Positions 5,972-60,784 of a stretch of 64,000 bases of DNA are shown here, in pieces. Below the pieces are notes generated by a model that had not been told where the DNA came from, made no database searches, and was given only the letters and a program-made list of their open reading frames with translations. The DNA is taken from the NCBI GenBank assembly GCA_016208085.1, contig JACQYT010000056.1, positions 1-64,000 of the forward strand, written 5' to 3'. The position numbers and the translations under genes are program-made. This DNA comes from Elusimicrobiota bacterium. Lineage in GTDB: Bacteria; Elusimicrobiota; Elusimicrobia; Elusimicrobiales; UBA9959. The first letter of the stretch is position 1; the number at the start of each line of letters is the position of its first letter.

Positions 5972-5984
5972 AAAAATTCTGTTC

Positions 5985-6085
5985 CTGACCAGTGAAGCAA
6001 ATTTGCCGGGCGGTTATTGGAAAAATCTATTGGTAGAGGTTGGTAAACAGGCGAACGGAAATCCGTCCGCCTTAGGCGGACGGAT
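5985..6085 (+). repeat. ~100-bp dispersed element (copy 1) ending in hairpin ATCCGTCCGCCT-T-AGGCGGACGGAT that abuts the murA start codon
   Basis: Shares CTGACC...GGTAgaGGTTggtaaACAgGCGAACGGA...hairpin with the copies at 56275, 58825, 54456(-) and 46850(-). Confidence 0.75.
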
Positions 6086-7408
6086 ATGGATAATTTTATA
6101 ATACACGGTTCAAAATCTTTGCGCGGCGAGGTGAAGATAAGCGGATCCAAAAACGCGGCGCTGCCGATACTTGCCGCCACCATGCTTACGCGGGAAAAAT
6201 GCGAGATACGGAACGTCCCCGACCTGATGGACATCAAATCCACTTTTGAACTGCTTAATTATATGGGCAAAAAATGTTTTTTCGGATTCAACGTTTTCAG
6301 CGTGGAGGAAGCTTCGGCCCTGAAACAGCACGCCCCCTACGACATGGTCAGGAAGATGCGCGCGTCGGTGCTGGTGGCGGGGCCGCTGCTGGCGAGATTT
6401 AAAAAAGTCAGGTTCTCGCTGCCCGGCGGCTGTTCAATAGGAGTGCGGCCCATAGACATACATCTTGAGGCTTTCCAGAAACTGGGGGCCCAAGTGTCTT
6501 ATGAACGGGGCGATGTAATAGTGAGCGCCGCGAAACTTAAAAGCGCCCGGCTGAAGTTCCGTTTCCCCAGCGTCGGCGCCACCGAGAACCTGATGATGTG
6601 CGCCGCGCTGATAAAAGGGACCACCGTGCTTGAAAACTGCGCCCGGGAGCCGGAGATCGCCGACCTTGCCGGGGCGCTCCGTTGCATGGGAGCCGTTGTG
6701 GAAGGGGAAGGCGCCGCCACAATAAAAATATGCGGCAGGGACGCTTTGAAAGGGCTTAAATATTCCGTCATGCCGGACAGGATAGAGACAGGCACCTTTA
6801 TGCTGATAGCCGCCGCGGCCGGAGGCAAACTCAAACTTTTAAACACCGATCTCAGGCTGGTGGAAGCTGTCACGCGCGGGCTTAAAAAAGCCGGGGTAAA
6901 GATTTCCACCGCCTGCCCGCCAGAAGCCCAACCAACGCCGGTTCGGGAATTTGGCAGGCGGGCCGCGCCAAAGCTCCGCTGGGGGGGGATAACCGTGGAA
7001 GCCAACGGATGCAGGCCGGCGCCGATCGGCGTGGCGACCAAACCCTATCCCGGATTTCCCACGGACCTGCAGGCACCCTGGATGGCGTTTATGGCGCGCG
7101 CCAGAGGTGAAAGCCTGATACACGAAGCGATCTTTGAGAACAGGTTCATACATGCCGCCGAACTTATGCGCATGGGCGCCGATATTACCGTCACCGACCG
7201 GAAAGCCGTCGTCAGAGGCGTCAAACGGCTTCTGGGCGCCCCGGTAATGGCCTCGGACATCAGGGCAGGAGCCGCGCTTATAGTGGCCGCGGCCGCGGCC
7301 AGGGGGATAACGGTGATCAAAAGGGTCTATCATATAGACCGGGGCTATGAAAAAATAGAGGACAAGCTCCGTTTGGCGGGCATGAGGATAGAAAGGGTAA
7401 AAGCATAG
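6086..7408 (+). CDS. murA: UDP-N-acetylglucosamine 1-carboxyvinyltransferase, with a probable in-frame insert around 6905-6985
   Basis: GSKNAALPILAATML, PGGCSIGVRPIDIHL, TKPYPGFPTDLQ. Confidence 0.95.
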   Translation: MDNFIIHGSKSLRGEVKISGSKNAALPILAATMLTREKCEIRNVPDLMDIKSTFELLNYMGKKCFFGFNVFSVEEASALKQHAPYDMVRKMRASVLVAGPLLARFKKVRFSLPGGCSIGVRPIDIHLEAFQKLGAQVSYERGDVIVSAAKLKSARLKFRFPSVGATENLMMCAALIKGTTVLENCAREPEIADLAGALRCMGAVVEGEGAATIKICGRDALKGLKYSVMPDRIETGTFMLIAAAAGGKLKLLNTDLRLVEAVTRGLKKAGVKISTACPPEAQPTPVREFGRRAAPKLRWGGITVEANGCRPAPIGVATKPYPGFPTDLQAPWMAFMARARGESLIHEAIFENRFIHAAELMRMGADITVTDRKAVVRGVKRLLGAPVMASDIRAGAALIVAAAAARGITVIKRVYHIDRGYEKIEDKLRLAGMRIERVKA

Positions 7409-16844: not shown

Positions 16845-16930
16845 GTAGAGGGTGCAGAAATAAGGAATTCCTTATAACTCTCCCCTCTACCCTAAACCCT
16901 CTCCCCTAAACCCTCTACCCTCTACCCTAC
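16845..16930. repeat. Heptad arrays GGGTAGA / CCCTCTA flanking an AAGGAATTCCTT centre
   Basis: tagggtagagggtgcagaaataaggaattccttataactctcccctctaccctaaaccctctcccctaaaccctctaccctctaccct. Confidence 0.85.
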
Positions 16931-30279: not shown

Positions 30280-31854
30280 TTAGTTAATGGCGAAGTCGCC
30301 CGCTGTGGTTGTGGCATCCTTCTTCTGCGTCAGTATTTCCGGGGCGAAGAGCACGTCAATGTTGCGGCCCTGGAACAGAGAGGAGTCTATGACCATTTCC
30401 AGGTTAAAGCTGCCTTTCTTTAGGAATGTCCCGGGCCCGGCGGAGCCGCTGATGCCAAGAATATCCCCTTCGTTGGAAACAAGCAACTTACGTGAGGAAA
30501 TGGAGGAGCCGTCCGCGTATACCGAATAAGCGAAAAAGTCCGCTTTCCCCGGTCCGCTCGGGAAGCTATTATATGCCGGCGTAAGGGCTTCCGGGTCTAT
30601 CGCGGCGTTATATAGTGTCGCGGTTCCTCCGGCATTTACATCGGCAATACTGGCTTGGTTTAGGGTAACCTGGTACATATTGCTTAGTACGCCCGCAACG
30701 TTCACTACTTTCTGAGTAAAGGTGAACTGGTTCGCGGTGGTGGAATTATAATCCTGTATCTGCTGGAACTGTGTGCGCTCGCCGCCCGGAACGCCAGGGC
30801 CGGAAAGTATCTGTTTATAGTCTATAGAGCCGGGATAATAGCGTGTGCCCGCTCCGTAGCCGGCGAAATTCACGGCGACAGGCTGGGTAAAATCTATCGT
30901 TTCTTTTATACTGTCCACCGTGTTGGTCAGGTAAACCTCAAAATATTTCATCCAGTTTGAGGGGGCGGTTTTTGAGAAATACATGCCGGCAATTATCTTC
31001 CCAACCTCGCTTATGTCGTCCGGTATTTTGGAATTGAACTGCTCTATCAGGTGGCCCCAGTCCAGGCGATTTTCCTCGGCGCGGCGGCTGAGGAACAGCA
31101 GTTTGAATTCCTTGTCGCTGGGACGCAGCAGGTATTCTTCAAGACGTACGCGGCGGCCGAAAGCGTCTATGGAATCCTTCCCAAGCTGGGACTCGTTAGC
31201 TTTGAGCTCACGGTTGCGCAGCTCTTCCAGCATGGTACGGGTACGCTCCCGGGCTGTCTCCTGGCGCACGGCCATGGGCCTGGCGGCATCGCCGGCGCGC
31301 TTGTCGCCGAGGGACATACCCTCCGGCTTTGACATGCCGTCCATAGCAATCTTTATCTTTTCCTCCGAGGAAACCACGGCCATATCGCCTTTGGAGTCGT
31401 TCACTTCTACCAGGCCTTCGGTAACGTTCATCTCGGTGCCGCCGTCCTTGCCTACCTCCATCTCAAACTCGGTGCCGCGCACGGCGCAGACCGCCGAGGG
31501 AGTGCGCACCTCAAGACGGCTTGAAAAATAGCCGGCCACCGCGGCTTTCAGTCTACCCAGCTTCAACCGGAAACCGGCCTTCTTCTTATTTGTCTCCTCA
31601 ACCAGGAAAATACTGCTGTTGCCCAGGGTGAATCGGGACCCGTCAGAAAAGAAAACCCCGGCCGTGGACTTATTGGAGGTCTTGATCTCCGAGCCCGCGG
31701 CAATCTTAACATTACTTTGCATCGCTTGCCAGGCGGAAGCCGGGGTAGCCCTAACATGAACTTCGCCATTTGGAACCAGCACTATATCCCGCGGCACAGC
31801 GCCGCAGGGAAAGGCCGCGAAAGAAACAAGTACAAGCGCGTAAAGGATTTTCAT
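30280..31854 (-). CDS. FecR-domain secreted protein (paralog B)
   Basis: KTSNKSTAGVFFSDGSRFTLGNSSIFLVEE...LEVRTPSAVCAVRGTEFEMEV. Confidence 0.85.
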   Translation of the reverse strand: MKILYALVLVSFAAFPCGAVPRDIVLVPNGEVHVRATPASAWQAMQSNVKIAAGSEIKTSNKSTAGVFFSDGSRFTLGNSSIFLVEETNKKKAGFRLKLGRLKAAVAGYFSSRLEVRTPSAVCAVRGTEFEMEVGKDGGTEMNVTEGLVEVNDSKGDMAVVSSEEKIKIAMDGMSKPEGMSLGDKRAGDAARPMAVRQETARERTRTMLEELRNRELKANESQLGKDSIDAFGRRVRLEEYLLRPSDKEFKLLFLSRRAEENRLDWGHLIEQFNSKIPDDISEVGKIIAGMYFSKTAPSNWMKYFEVYLTNTVDSIKETIDFTQPVAVNFAGYGAGTRYYPGSIDYKQILSGPGVPGGERTQFQQIQDYNSTTANQFTFTQKVVNVAGVLSNMYQVTLNQASIADVNAGGTATLYNAAIDPEALTPAYNSFPSGPGKADFFAYSVYADGSSISSRKLLVSNEGDILGISGSAGPGTFLKKGSFNLEMVIDSSLFQGRNIDVLFAPEILTQKKDATTTAGDFAIN

Positions 31855-42727: not shown

Positions 42728-42990
42728 CTAAAAATTTTTGCCGCAAAAATTTTTACTATGCCCCGACCTGAAGAAAGGATAAAGGATTAGGGCTAAAGGC
42801 TAAAGGCCGGAATAATTTCTTTGTTTTTCCTTTATCCTTCAGCCTTCATCCTTTAGCCTTTTTTACGGCATAGCCTTGAGGGAGAAAGAAATTTCTCCCT
42901 CATCTCCCTGCCTGCCGGCAGGCAGGCGGCAAGGTGTTGAAGAAAACCCCGTGCCGGGTAGGATAAAATGTTGTCGGACAACATTTTATT
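42728..42990. repeat. Composite dispersed repeat, copy 1
   Basis: ctaaaaatttttgccgcaaaaattttta ... aaggataaagg...cctttatcctt ... caaggtgttgaagaaaaccccgtgccgggtaggataaaatgttgtcggacaacattttatt; matched at 60478-60784. Confidence 0.9.
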
Positions 42991-45500: not shown

Positions 45501-46850
45501 ATGCTCATCAGACGGCCTAAAACAAGGATTATTTTTCCATTCCTCCTCCCTCATCCCTCATCCCTCCGGTTAGGCTTCATAACGTTCCTGCTCTCCCTCA
45601 TAGCCGGCGCAGCCCGGGCCCAGGCCGACGTCTATATAGACGTCGCCGCCTCAAAAGAATTTAAGAAGACGGCTGTGGCGCTGGCCGAATTTCTGCCCGC
45701 TAGAGCGGAAAACCCGAAGGACCTGGGACTGGCCGAAGCTTTCCGCGCTATCATCCGCGCCGACCTGCTGTATTGCAGATATTTCGACCTCAAAGAAGAG
45801 CCTTTCAGCCCGGCGAACCTCTCCACGGGGCCGGCCGCCGTAAAATTCTGGAAGACGGCCGGCGCCGCGTATCTGGTAAGCGCCAAAGCCGCTCAAAGCG
45901 AAACCGTCTGGACTTTCAACGCGCGGCTCCACGATCTGGAAACCGGCAGAATAATCATGGAGAAATTTTACCAGGGCGAACCCCGCGCTTTAAGAAGAGC
46001 CGCCCATCTTTTTTCCGACGACGTCATCTTAAGGGTTACCGGCAGAAAGGGGCTGGCGCATTCAAAGCTGGCTTTTTCAAACAACTCCACCGGCTCAAAG
46101 GAGATATATATAGTGGATTATGACGGGGAAAATCTTATTCAGCTCACAAACGACCGTTCCATAGCTCTGCTTCCCCGCTGGTCCCAGGACGCCGCAAAGA
46201 TCTATTACACCACGTACCGCTACGGCAACCCGGACATGTTTGAGATAGACCTCAAAGCCGGCAAAATAAGGCCCTTCACCACTTTCCAGGGCCTCAACAT
46301 TCCGGGCGGTTTTTCCCCCGACGGCATAACCATGGTCATGACGCTGTCGCGCGGGGACGACCCGAATATCTACATGCTCAACGTAGTCACGAAGGGACTT
46401 GAGAAAATGCTGACCGCCTTCGGGGTCAGTTCAAGCCCGACCTACTCGCCTGACGGAAAACAGATAGCTTTCGTCTCAAACCGTTCAGGCGCCCCCCAGG
46501 TTCATGTCCTGGATCTTGAGACAAAAAAAACCAGAAAACTCACCCGCATGAACTGGTGCGACTCGCCGAACTGGTCGCCTTCGGGGGAATGGATAGTGTT
46601 CGCGGGCAGGGAAACCGCCAGAGAGACGCTGAACATTTTCCTGACCGACCTCAGCGGCCGGAGAAGGCGGCTTACCGACAAAGCCGGGAACAACGAGGAC
46701 CCGTCCTGGTCGCCCGACGGGCGGTTCATAGCTTTCACTTCGACGCGCCGGGGCCATAGAGAGCTTTTCGTAATGGACGCAGACGGCTCCGCCCCCCATC
46801 CCGTCACCGGCCTGAAAGGCAAAACCTACACCCCCAACTGGAGCCCGTAA
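45501..46850 (+). CDS. tolB: TolB translocation protein (PD40 beta-propeller)
   Basis: Repeated SPDGKQIAFVSNRSGAPQVHVLDLE / SPDGRFIAFTSTRRGHRELFVMD. Confidence 0.9.
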   Translation: MLIRRPKTRIIFPFLLPHPSSLRLGFITFLLSLIAGAARAQADVYIDVAASKEFKKTAVALAEFLPARAENPKDLGLAEAFRAIIRADLLYCRYFDLKEEPFSPANLSTGPAAVKFWKTAGAAYLVSAKAAQSETVWTFNARLHDLETGRIIMEKFYQGEPRALRRAAHLFSDDVILRVTGRKGLAHSKLAFSNNSTGSKEIYIVDYDGENLIQLTNDRSIALLPRWSQDAAKIYYTTYRYGNPDMFEIDLKAGKIRPFTTFQGLNIPGGFSPDGITMVMTLSRGDDPNIYMLNVVTKGLEKMLTAFGVSSSPTYSPDGKQIAFVSNRSGAPQVHVLDLETKKTRKLTRMNWCDSPNWSPSGEWIVFAGRETARETLNIFLTDLSGRRRRLTDKAGNNEDPSWSPDGRFIAFTSTRRGHRELFVMDADGSAPHPVTGLKGKTYTPNWSP

Positions 46851-46938
46851 CCCGAAAATCGCGGCGATTTTCGGGTCTTCGTTCGCCTCTCAAACAACTG
46901 GCATATTATGCAGCTGTTTCACATTATACCAGTGAAAT
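46850..46938 (-). repeat. ~100-bp dispersed element, reverse-orientation copy, with hairpin ACCCGAAAATCGC-G-GCGATTTTCGGGT
   Basis: Reverse complement reads TTCACTGGTATAAT...CCAGTTGTTTGAGAGGCGAACGAAGACCCGAAAATCGC... Confidence 0.75.
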
Positions 46939-46942
46939 AAAA

Positions 46943-46976
46943 GGCCCCGGCATAATTGCCGGGGCCGTTCTTTTTT
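46943..46976 (+). terminator. Rho-independent terminator downstream of tolB
   Basis: GGCCCCGGCATAATTGCCGGGGCC followed by TTCTTTTTT. Confidence 0.85.
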
Positions 46977-53144: not shown

Positions 53145-54458
53145 ATGATTTTAGGGATAGGAACCGACTTCATCGAGGTTTCCCGGGTCCAAAGGCTTCA
53201 AAGAAATAATATGGCTTTCGCCGACACTGTCCGAGAGGAGTATCAGAAAGAGCTTGAGAGCTTGAGGAGCGCCGGCATGTTCAAGGTCGAGCGCTTCATC
53301 CATTCCGCGCAGGCCGCCGACATCGAAGTGGAATTCCCGGCGGGTTCGGCGCCCAAAAAAGTCATCAATATGTGCGCCAATAATTACCTTGGGCTCTCCA
53401 GCCATCCCGAGGTCGTCAAGGCCGCGCACGACGGCATGGACAGGCGCGGCTACGGGATGTCCTCGGTGCGCTTCATCTGCGGCACACAGGACATACATAA
53501 GGAGCTGGAAAAGCGCATGACGGAGTTCCTCGGTACCGAGGACACCATCCTGTTTGCGTCCTGCATGGACGCCAACGCCGGGGTCTTCGAGGCTATTCTC
53601 GGCGAAGCCGACGCGATCATCTCCGACCGCCTGGTCCACGCTTCCATCATAGACGGCATCAGGCTGTGCAAGGCGCAGCGCGACATCTTCAACCATACCG
53701 ACATGAAAGACCTGGAGGCCAAGCTCCGCCTTCATTGCGGCAGACGTCGTAAGATCGTAGTCACGGACGGCGTTTTCTCTATGGACGGCGACACGCCCCC
53801 GCTGGACGAGATGGTTGTCCTGTGCGAAAAGTACGGCGCGCTGCTCTTCGTTGACGATTCCCATTCCACCGGCTTTATCGGCAAGACGGGCCGTGGCACG
53901 CACGAAAAATACGGCGTCGTAGGCAAAATAGATGTCATAACCACCACTTTCGGCAAGGCCCTCGGCGGCGCCTCGGGCGGCTGCGTCTCGGGCCGCAGGG
54001 AACTTGTGGAGATGTGCCGGCAGAAGGCCCGCCCGTACCTGTTCTCCAATACGATTGCGCCTGTGGTGGTGGCGGGAGCGCTGCGGGTGTTGGACATTCT
54101 TTCCCGGAGCACGGAGCGCCGCGACAAGCTGGAGAGCAATTCCGCCTATTGGCGCAAGGGCCTGACCGAAGCCGGCTTTGTGCTCAAAGAGGGCGACACC
54201 CCGATCGTTCCGGTCATGCTGTTCAACGCGAAGCTCGCCCAGGATTTCTCCCGCGACCTCTTTGACGAGGGGATATACGCGATAGGCTTCTTCTTCCCGG
54301 TGGTTCCCAATGGCCAGGCCCGCATCCGCACGCAGCTTTCGGCCGCGCACGAGACGCACCATCTGGATAAGGCCCTTACCGCCTTTATCAAGGTAGGTAA
54401 AAAATACGGGATACCGGGCAAGACCAGGGAAGAGATCATCGCCAGGTACGGCGCTTAA
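53145..54458 (+). CDS. kbl: Glycine C-acetyltransferase / 2-amino-3-ketobutyrate CoA ligase (alpha-oxoamine synthase) with a 22-aa AcpS-like N-terminal leader; native start probably 53211
   Basis: MCANNYLGLSSHPEV, VFSMDGDTPPLDEM, TTTFGKALGGASGG; leader MILGIGTDFIEVSRVQRLQ resembles holo-ACP synthase. Confidence 0.92.
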   Translation: MILGIGTDFIEVSRVQRLQRNNMAFADTVREEYQKELESLRSAGMFKVERFIHSAQAADIEVEFPAGSAPKKVINMCANNYLGLSSHPEVVKAAHDGMDRRGYGMSSVRFICGTQDIHKELEKRMTEFLGTEDTILFASCMDANAGVFEAILGEADAIISDRLVHASIIDGIRLCKAQRDIFNHTDMKDLEAKLRLHCGRRRKIVVTDGVFSMDGDTPPLDEMVVLCEKYGALLFVDDSHSTGFIGKTGRGTHEKYGVVGKIDVITTTFGKALGGASGGCVSGRRELVEMCRQKARPYLFSNTIAPVVVAGALRVLDILSRSTERRDKLESNSAYWRKGLTEAGFVLKEGDTPIVPVMLFNAKLAQDFSRDLFDEGIYAIGFFFPVVPNGQARIRTQLSAAHETHHLDKALTAFIKVGKKYGIPGKTREEIIARYGA

Positions 54459-54570
54459 AAAAATGTCCGCCTCAGGCAGACATTTTTTTAATATTCGTTC
54501 GCCTGCTTGCCGGCTTCGGCCGATAGATTTTACCAGTGAACGCCTGTTAATTTTAGTATTGCCGATCAGG
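54456..54570 (-). repeat. ~100-bp dispersed element (reverse copy); its hairpin AAAAAAATGTCCGCCTcAGGCaGACATTTTTTT is also the kbl terminator
   Basis: Reverse complement reads CTGATCGGCAATACTAAAATTAACAGGCGTTCACTGGTAAAATCTAT...GGCGAACGAATATT...hairpin. Confidence 0.75.
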
Positions 54571-54625
54571 AAAGAAACTAAAAAACCCTCCTTTTAGCAA
54601 AGGGGGAAGAAGGGGAATTTGAATA

Positions 54626-56119: not shown

Positions 56120-56274
56120 TCTTACAATGCAATAGCCTCTACCCCTCTTTTGGAAAGAGGGGAGGGGAAGATTTTTGCAAAGAAAATTAACGACGAGGCG
56201 GGGACCGGATAATAGTTTAAATTTTGTATTATATAAGTGGTTTCAAGGCCGGTTCTCTAAATGAAGTTTTCGCT

Positions 56275-56377
56275 CTGACCGGCGTGACGGAATTCACCGG
56301 CGTGTGCCGGTGAAATACAAAGCTGAAGTCGTCTGACAGGCGAACGGACACCCGTCCGCCTCAAGGCGCGGACGGGT
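56275..56377 (+). repeat. ~100-bp dispersed element; hairpin ACCCGTCCGCC...GGCGcGGACGGGT ends 1 nt before the nusB ATG
   Basis: CTGACCGGCGTGACGGAATTCACCGGCG...TCTGACAGGCGAACGGACACCCGTCCGCC. Confidence 0.78.
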
Positions 56378-56378
56378 T

Positions 56379-58930
<2,552 letters not shown>

Positions 58931-60430
58931 ATGGATAAAACCGCGTATCTCAGCGTTTACGACAAGACCGGCATCGTGGATTTTGCCCGCGGGCTGGAAA
59001 GCCTCGGTTTTGAGATCTACGCCTCCGGCTCCACTTTCAAGCTCCTCCGGGAATCGGAAATAGAGGCGGAAGATATACGCTACTCGCCGCCGGTCCCGGT
59101 TTCTATCCTCAAAGCCTTGTCCGGCCGCTCCGGCGTCCTTTCGGAAAACGGGGTGGAAGTGCCCGGGCCTTATATCGTGGCCGCCAACCTCTACCCGATA
59201 GCCAATATCGTGGGGCAGGAAGAATTCGCCATAGAGGAACTGTCCAATTACCTGGATCAGGCCAACGCCGCAGTCCTGCGCGCGGCCGCCAAAGATTTTG
59301 AAAATGTGATAACGCTCTGCCGGCCCCAGGATTACGGGCCGGTCCTTGAGGCGCTTAGAACGGCGGGGGGGCTTGAGCCCGCCAACAAGCGGCAGCTCGC
59401 CGCCCAGGCCTGGCAGTACCTGGCGGCCTACGACGCCACCGTCGCGCAGTATCTTTCCGAGACGCGGGACCTGCTGGGCGAAGAAGTGGTGATGAGCCTT
59501 AAGAAAGTCATGGAGCTCGCTTACGGCGAAAACCGCCATCAGAAAGCGGCTTTTTATGCCCTGAGCGGCGCCAGGCCGCGCGGCCTTAACGCGGCCCGGA
59601 TACTTTCCGGCGGGCAATTCAACCTGAACCATTATCTGGACCTGAACATGGCCTTTGAACTGGCCGCTGAATTCGAGGAGCCGGTTTGCGTCATTTCAAA
59701 ACATGCCAGGCCGGCCGGCGTCTGCGCGGCCGTAAAGCCGGTAGATTGCTTCAGGGGCGCTTTCAAAGCCGATCCCGCCGGGGCGGCGGGCGGCACGGCC
59801 GCCTTCAACCGCCAGGTGGACGAAGAAACGGCCCGGGCGCTGAAAGAGGTTTTTATTGAAACCGTAATGGCACCGGATTACGGCAAGGAAGCCCTGGCGC
59901 TGCTGCGCGCCAAGGAAGGCCTGAAGGTCATCGCCCTGCCGGCCCCGGTCCTTTCCCCCAGAGAGGTGGAGCTTTATTCCGTGGCCGGCGGGCTGCTGAT
60001 AGAGTCCAAGGACCAGGAAGTGCTGGGCGCGGAGCTGCAATGCGTTACCAGGCGCAAGCCGTCCGATGAGGAATTGCGTTCCCTCAAGCTGGCCTGGAAG
60101 ATTTCAAAATACGCCAAAACCTACGCCGTGGCGCTGGCATCCGGCGGGACTTCGGTTGCCCTGGGCGCGGCGGAAAGCTCCACCTATGACGCGGTCCGGA
60201 GCGCGGTTTTAAAGCTTAAGGATAAGCATCCGATCCTGGAAGGCAAGGCGCCGCTGGTGATGGCCTGCGACGCGGCGCTGCCGCTGAAGACACTGGAGGC
60301 GGCGCTGGCGGCGGGGATAAGCGCGGTGATACAGCCGGGGGGCTGGCGGGAAGACCTGGTCTGCGCCCAGTTCTGCGACTTAAAAAACATCGCGATGGTC
60401 CTGACCGGCGTAAGGCACTTCAAACACTGA
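58931..60430 (+). CDS. purH: Bifunctional AICAR transformylase/IMP cyclohydrolase PurH (or close homolog)
   Basis: LSVYDKTGIVDFARGLESLGFEIYASGST; ELAYGENRHQKAAFY; DAALPLKTLEAALAAGISAVIQPGG. Confidence 0.9.
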   Translation: MDKTAYLSVYDKTGIVDFARGLESLGFEIYASGSTFKLLRESEIEAEDIRYSPPVPVSILKALSGRSGVLSENGVEVPGPYIVAANLYPIANIVGQEEFAIEELSNYLDQANAAVLRAAAKDFENVITLCRPQDYGPVLEALRTAGGLEPANKRQLAAQAWQYLAAYDATVAQYLSETRDLLGEEVVMSLKKVMELAYGENRHQKAAFYALSGARPRGLNAARILSGGQFNLNHYLDLNMAFELAAEFEEPVCVISKHARPAGVCAAVKPVDCFRGAFKADPAGAAGGTAAFNRQVDEETARALKEVFIETVMAPDYGKEALALLRAKEGLKVIALPAPVLSPREVELYSVAGGLLIESKDQEVLGAELQCVTRRKPSDEELRSLKLAWKISKYAKTYAVALASGGTSVALGAAESSTYDAVRSAVLKLKDKHPILEGKAPLVMACDAALPLKTLEAALAAGISAVIQPGGWREDLVCAQFCDLKNIAMVLTGVRHFKH

Positions 60431-60477: not shown

Positions 60478-60784
60478 CTAAAAATTTTTGCAGCAAAAAT
60501 TTTTATCATGCCCCGCCCTAAAGAAAGGATAAAGGATCAGGGATCAGGGATAAAGGATAAAGGCCGGAATAATCTCTTTGTTTTTCCTTCATCCTTCAGC
60601 CTTTATCCTTTAGCCTTTCTTCGGGCGGGGTAACCTTGGGGCAAGAGGGAGTTTGAGGGAGAAATAAATTTCTCCCTCCTCCTGTTGGATACAGTTGAAT
60701 TGTGTCGCTTCGCTCCACCCCGGCAAGGTGTTGAAGAAAACCCCGCGCCGGGTAGGATAAAATGTTGTCGGACAACATTTTATT
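60478..60784. repeat. Composite dispersed repeat, copy 2
   Basis: Shared blocks with 42728-42990, including aaggtgttgaagaaaaccccgcgccgggtaggataaaatgttgtcggacaacattttatt. Confidence 0.9.

Follow-up and report, generated by a model that had tools for sequence, protein, structure and literature searches.

Three genes in the 64,000-nt stretch of Elusimicrobiota DNA analyzed here (the window), murA, nusB, and purH, are each preceded by the same sequence element, which ends in a hairpin at the start codon. This arrangement raises the question of whether the element, here called E1, is a leader that serves these genes or a repeat that has come to lie in front of them. The original prediction described it as a mobile 5′ leader that could control translation or create leaderless mRNAs. 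Direct reading confirmed three plus-strand copies sharing the described core. At murA, the core (5982 to 6059; profile match of 54 bits) is followed by the right hairpin ATCCGTCCGCCT-T-AGGCGGACGGAT (6061 to 6085), which ends 0 nt before the ATG at 6086. At nusB, the core (56271 to 56349; profile match of 50 bits) is followed by a hairpin (56350 to 56377) ending 1 nt before the ATG at 56379. At purH, the core (58820 to 58899; DNA match of 144 bits) is followed by ACCCGAAAATCGC-G-GCGATTTTCGGGT (58901 to 58927), ending 3 nt before the ATG at 58931; in this copy an extra, separate hairpin, GGTCGGAAAATTGC-GGCAATTTTCCGACC, adjoins the left side of the core. The products were assigned by Pfam as EPSP_synthase (murA), NusB, and AICARFT/MGS (purH). 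Nearly all murA genes of relatives begin at the equivalent ATG, as do the nusB and purH orthologues of the sister species G001, and the three start codons therefore stand. No room is left for a Shine-Dalgarno (SD) sequence between hairpin and ATG at any of the three genes, though the genome does use SDs (5- to 7-nt matches at 164 of 641 starts versus 27 at random sites).

The list of copies was nevertheless incomplete, since two reversed copies in the window had been overlooked. One has its core at 54493 to 54573 on the minus strand (profile match of 62 bits), and its right hairpin (54457 to 54489) overlaps the stop codon (54456 to 54458) of an aminotransferase gene (53145 to 54458). The other is a weak, degraded core remnant (minus strand, 46876 to 46952; 12.6 bits), whose right hairpin, CCCGAAAATCGC-G-GCGATTTTCGGG (46851 to 46875), directly follows the stop of a PD40 beta-propeller gene (45501 to 46850). 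Thus, each minus-strand copy has its right hairpin on the stop of the plus-strand gene that precedes it.

E1 has a left end that varies and is often truncated, followed by a conserved core of ~80 nt (CCTGACCGGCGATGCRAATTTTACAGGCGTTCATTGGTAAAAC...GGCTATAGTTGTTTGACAGGCGAACGA) and then by an exchangeable right hairpin. Right-hairpin loops were 8 nt or shorter in 48 of 55 copies; 26 of these 48 hairpins were perfect and 18 carried one mismatch. The arms belonged to several unrelated types (e.g., CCCGAAAATTGC, CCCGTCCGCTC, CCAAAAAAGCG, and AAAAAAATGTCTGCC), with changes in one arm compensated in the other, bearing out the proposal that the terminal hairpin is exchangeable. A related loop of ~46 nt (GGATATTTTTATTCGTCAAGTT...) was common to four copies, and three further long-loop hairpin calls were partial or unrelated. 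The left end is ragged: most copies are shorter than the fullest ones, and some start within the core. The fullest copies have a degenerate left hairpin (TTAACCYGAAAGTTTCAGTTGGAACTGATTTTTTTCGGG), and in these copies only, the outer ends resemble an inverted repeat (TTAACCYGAAA / TTTTCGGGTTA). No conserved RNA fold was found for the core (consensus fold of −0.42 kcal/mol with 3 pairs), folds of single consensus sequences varied from subtype to subtype, and an Rfam search of the window returned no match. We therefore rejected a structured cis-regulatory RNA of the Rfam type; conservation of the core in sequence without a conserved fold points to a DNA element.

Genome-wide searches showed E1 to be a dispersed repeat of ~120 to 150 bases with ~69 copies in one Elusimicrobiota genome. 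A sequence-only model built from 46 copies returned 69 matches in this genome (G000), whose own copies the model contains by construction. With strict filters, which distant forms may escape, the same model matched once in the sister species (G001) and once, weakly, in each of G024 and G041; the 57 other relatives gave no match. Direct DNA search gave the same contrast between G000 and its relatives, and the pattern RACARGCGAACGR, a 13-nt stretch of the core, matched 35 times in G000 versus 0 times in a reversed control. Exact E1 patterns had no match in collections of genome contigs and viral contigs, from which records of G000 itself are possibly absent, and a literature search on Elusimicrobia repeats found nothing relevant. 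The closest named genome is the Elusimicrobia metagenome-assembled genome JAHJSU01, whose murA is 86% identical in the best segment. Copies of E1 differ by up to ~25%, so its activity may be old. In G024, which belongs to another genus, a weak E1-like match (locus L338, G024:C5:12302-12390) is followed by a long-loop hairpin like the 46-nt loop of some E1 copies; it is possibly an older form of E1.

We then asked how the right end of E1 is placed relative to genes. The gene calls came from a home-made program based on codon usage, which makes individual starts approximate; stop codons are independent of the choice of start. The right neighbor was antisense in 31 of the 55 copies read, and 25 of these 31 have the hairpin end on that gene's stop codon; the others lie at −22 or at 80 nt or more, with none at 1 to 79 nt from the stop. 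The right neighbor was in sense orientation in 23 of 55 copies, with the E1 end 4 nt or less from the start codon in 10 of the 23; the genes so abutted have unrelated functions. Overall, 32 of 44 right ends were no more than 4 nt from a gene edge, compared to 9.9 expected under uniform placement in the available spacer; only 4 of 44 left ends were as close. The distance analysis thus revealed that right ends strongly favor gene edges, both stops and starts. The outcome named as refuting the original prediction, no preference for start codons, was therefore only half borne out, although start codons are not the rule (10/23 starts versus 25/31 antisense stops). The abutted stops were TAA in 21 of 25 cases, compared to 284 of 633 genome-wide (P = 7 × 10−5), and TTA was common on the right flank of E1. 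Several families have hairpins that start at offset 0 from the stop codon (39/71). The abutment of E1 at gene edges is one-ended and base precise, sharper than in the descriptions of REP elements that we found.

Comparison with the sister species supported the view that E1 is a dispersed element. Ten orthologous loci had usable flanks, and E1 was missing from G001 at all ten. Seven of these G001 loci carried a different inverted-repeat insertion (e.g., AAGGCTAAAGGATAAAGG..., AAGTCTAGAGTC..., or CAGTAATCAGTAACCGG...), and two looked like near-empty sites (C45:51541 and C52) without a clean target duplication. For a simple insertion at TA or TTA with duplication, the flanks are suggestive, but the empty sites are not clean. 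The G001 nusB leader contains a small palindrome, and what may be a remnant of E1 lies upstream of the site. At both stop-abutting loci that could be compared between the species, the stop codon is at its native position. At murA and nusB, G000 lacks the ATG-adjacent sequence of G001, including the AGGGAG-like SD of murA. Since E1 is absent from the other relatives, the comparison favors insertion in G000. Separately, the nusB leaders of several relatives (L086 to L097) share a recurrent motif, GGTTCT(C/T)T, mostly right behind an AT-rich stretch resembling TATCATATA; here the motif is kept upstream of E1 at nusB (window positions ~56200 to 56260).

These genomes contain other repeat families as well. 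A second family, E2, is a hairpin chain of ~166 bp (AAAAATTTTTGCGGCAAAAATTTTT - CCCCGCCCTTTAGGGCGGGG - GAGGGGGAAAGAAATTTCCCCCTC - CGGCACGGGG..CCCCGTGCCG - TAAAATGTTG..CAACATTTTA) found in the window at 42730 to 42988 and ~60619 to 60782 and elsewhere at C31:46956, C52:7254-7416, and C3:22999. An E2 profile gave 51 matches in 824 kb of G000 and none in ~770 kb of the sister species, and some E2 ends abut stop or start codons. Compared to L175, the E2 copy in C52 (L326 region, reverse position 30406) is a near-clean insertion one base before a start codon, where the sister species has GGTTTTAAATGAAC. Word-like inverted repeats (GGGTAGAGGGTATAGGG..., AAGGCTAAAGGATAAAGG..., and AAGTCTAAAGTC...) occupy intergenic gaps of both G000 and G001, often from the stop codon on (e.g., L071, L068, and L077; window positions near 16926 and 60595); in G001, some are flanked by CCCGAAAA-type hairpins, the same as those of E1. 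At L135 (C40), a Y1 transposase gene lies amid TAGCGGCGGATGTAAATCCGC / GGCGATTTACATCGCCCGCTACA palindromes; gene and palindromes resemble a REP/RAYT pair and are separate from E1.

Among known systems, E1 is closest to REP/BIME and MITE-like repeats. Like REP/BIME (PMC3733652), E1 is a high-copy intergenic palindromic element near the 3′ ends of open reading frames (ORFs), as the antisense stops attest, and in both, termini can supply a stop codon and the palindromes can be paired around a spacer. Unlike REPs, which carry a GTAG/CGTC tag at one end of a 20- to 40-bp palindrome, E1 is 120 to 150 bp long with a conserved directional core, uses TAA, has no such tag in its right-hairpin arms, and shows no linkage to the Y1 genes identified (two Y1_Tnp loci, neither with an E1 match). 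E1 resembles prokaryotic MITEs in being short, nonautonomous, dispersed, and intergenic, and its fullest copies, though not the others, have outer ends suggestive of an inverted repeat; it differs in its ragged left end and strong right-end hairpin and in having no autonomous parent found and no confirmed target-site duplication. The intergenic TAACTGA repeats of Beggiatoaceae and others likewise lie a few nucleotides from start codons, mostly without an SD (PMC4679880), but these are tandem heptamers, whereas E1 is hairpin ended and more often found on stop codons in antisense. Because the tests for the REP tag and RAYT association failed and MITE status is not demonstrable, E1 is best described as a variant of the general REP/MITE kind, placed in neither family.

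What, then, does E1 do where it abuts a start codon? The predicted cost of opening positions −18 to +12 was 20.1, 17.9, and 19.2 kcal/mol for murA, nusB, and purH, respectively, compared to 7.1, 10.5, and 10.1 kcal/mol for the G001 orthologues and to a median of 9.5 kcal/mol (90th percentile, 15.6) for 150 genes of G000. Start-abutting E1 is probably part of the mRNA, forming a 5′ leader with a hairpin that would hide the ribosome site, and this occlusion may reduce translation or make it conditional as an incidental effect of the element. A side effect on translation is therefore plausible where E1 forms the leader, and initiation should be impaired if the leader is transcribed in full and escapes processing. 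As murA, nusB, and purH are presumably needed, processing, coupling, or use of an internal start may come into play. In this respect the original prediction was partly upheld: E1 is the immediate leader at these genes and is predicted to be costly to open. A role specific to leaders was not borne out. The reading that E1 is a functional 5′ leader, with the start-abutting hairpin regulating downstream translation or being cut to yield leaderless mRNAs, draws on the flush fit to the ATG of three essential-type genes, the lack of SD space, and the rise in predicted opening cost over the sister species. Against it, start-abutting copies number only 10 of 55, the boundary copies lying mostly antisense past stops; the target genes are functionally unrelated; 4 of the 10 start-abutting copies have near-ordinary opening costs (9.8 to 12.8 kcal/mol); and the core has neither a conserved fold nor an Rfam match. 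We regard this reading as doubtful, and E1 looks like a mobile genomic repeat rather than a purpose-built switch for murA, nusB, and purH.

The explanation that we favor, and consider probable, is that E1 is a nonautonomous dispersed DNA repeat that multiplied in one Elusimicrobiota species, mobilized in trans and anchored by one end at gene edges. We infer that an enzyme supplied in trans would move the copies by acting on the right end, joining it beside TTA-like sites; gene-breaking insertions would then be lost, leaving the surviving copies at the edges of coding sequences. Counting against this account, the flush fit to stop and start codons is closer than would be expected if selection against gene disruption acted alone, no clean target-site duplication was seen, and neither a mobilizing enzyme nor an autonomous parent was found at 21 transposase or reverse transcriptase loci of G000 (13 DDE_Tnp_1, 3 DDE_3, 2 Y1, and 3 RVT_1), at all of which E1 was absent. 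It is unlikely, though the least so among the alternatives, that an unknown mobilization process in this lineage attaches elements unrelated to one another (E1, E2, and the word-type inverted repeats) by a single hairpin end to the exact stop or start edge of coding sequence. Less likely again is co-option of E1 as a 3′-end element, in which the post-stop hairpin acts as a transcription terminator or shields the 3′ end of the mRNA and is hence kept flush with stops. The abutted antisense stops and the several hairpin families beginning directly after stops suit this idea, as do reports that REPs within 15 nt of a stop affect translation (PMC12306157), but it leaves the start-abutting copies unexplained. 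Moreover, a T-rich 9-mer follows the hairpin in just 12 of 55 copies in sense and 5 of 55 in antisense, which led us to reject a standard intrinsic terminator. Ranking below even the functional leader, and thus least probable, is a REP/BIME element moved by a RAYT-type Y1 transposase of this genome. Two Y1_Tnp genes are present, and REP termini elsewhere give flanking ORFs their stop codons (PMC3733652), but the E1 consensus has no GTAG or CGTC, E1 is found at neither Y1 locus, and the Y1 gene on C40 has its own palindrome family (TAGCGGCGGATGTAAATCCGC).

The base-precise, one-ended fit of E1 to stop and start codons raises a specific question of how targets are chosen. Within one species, a mobile-type repeat can come to occupy the leaders of central genes (murA, nusB, and purH), displacing the ribosome site kept by the sister species, and a hairpin ahead of a start codon need not be a riboregulator.
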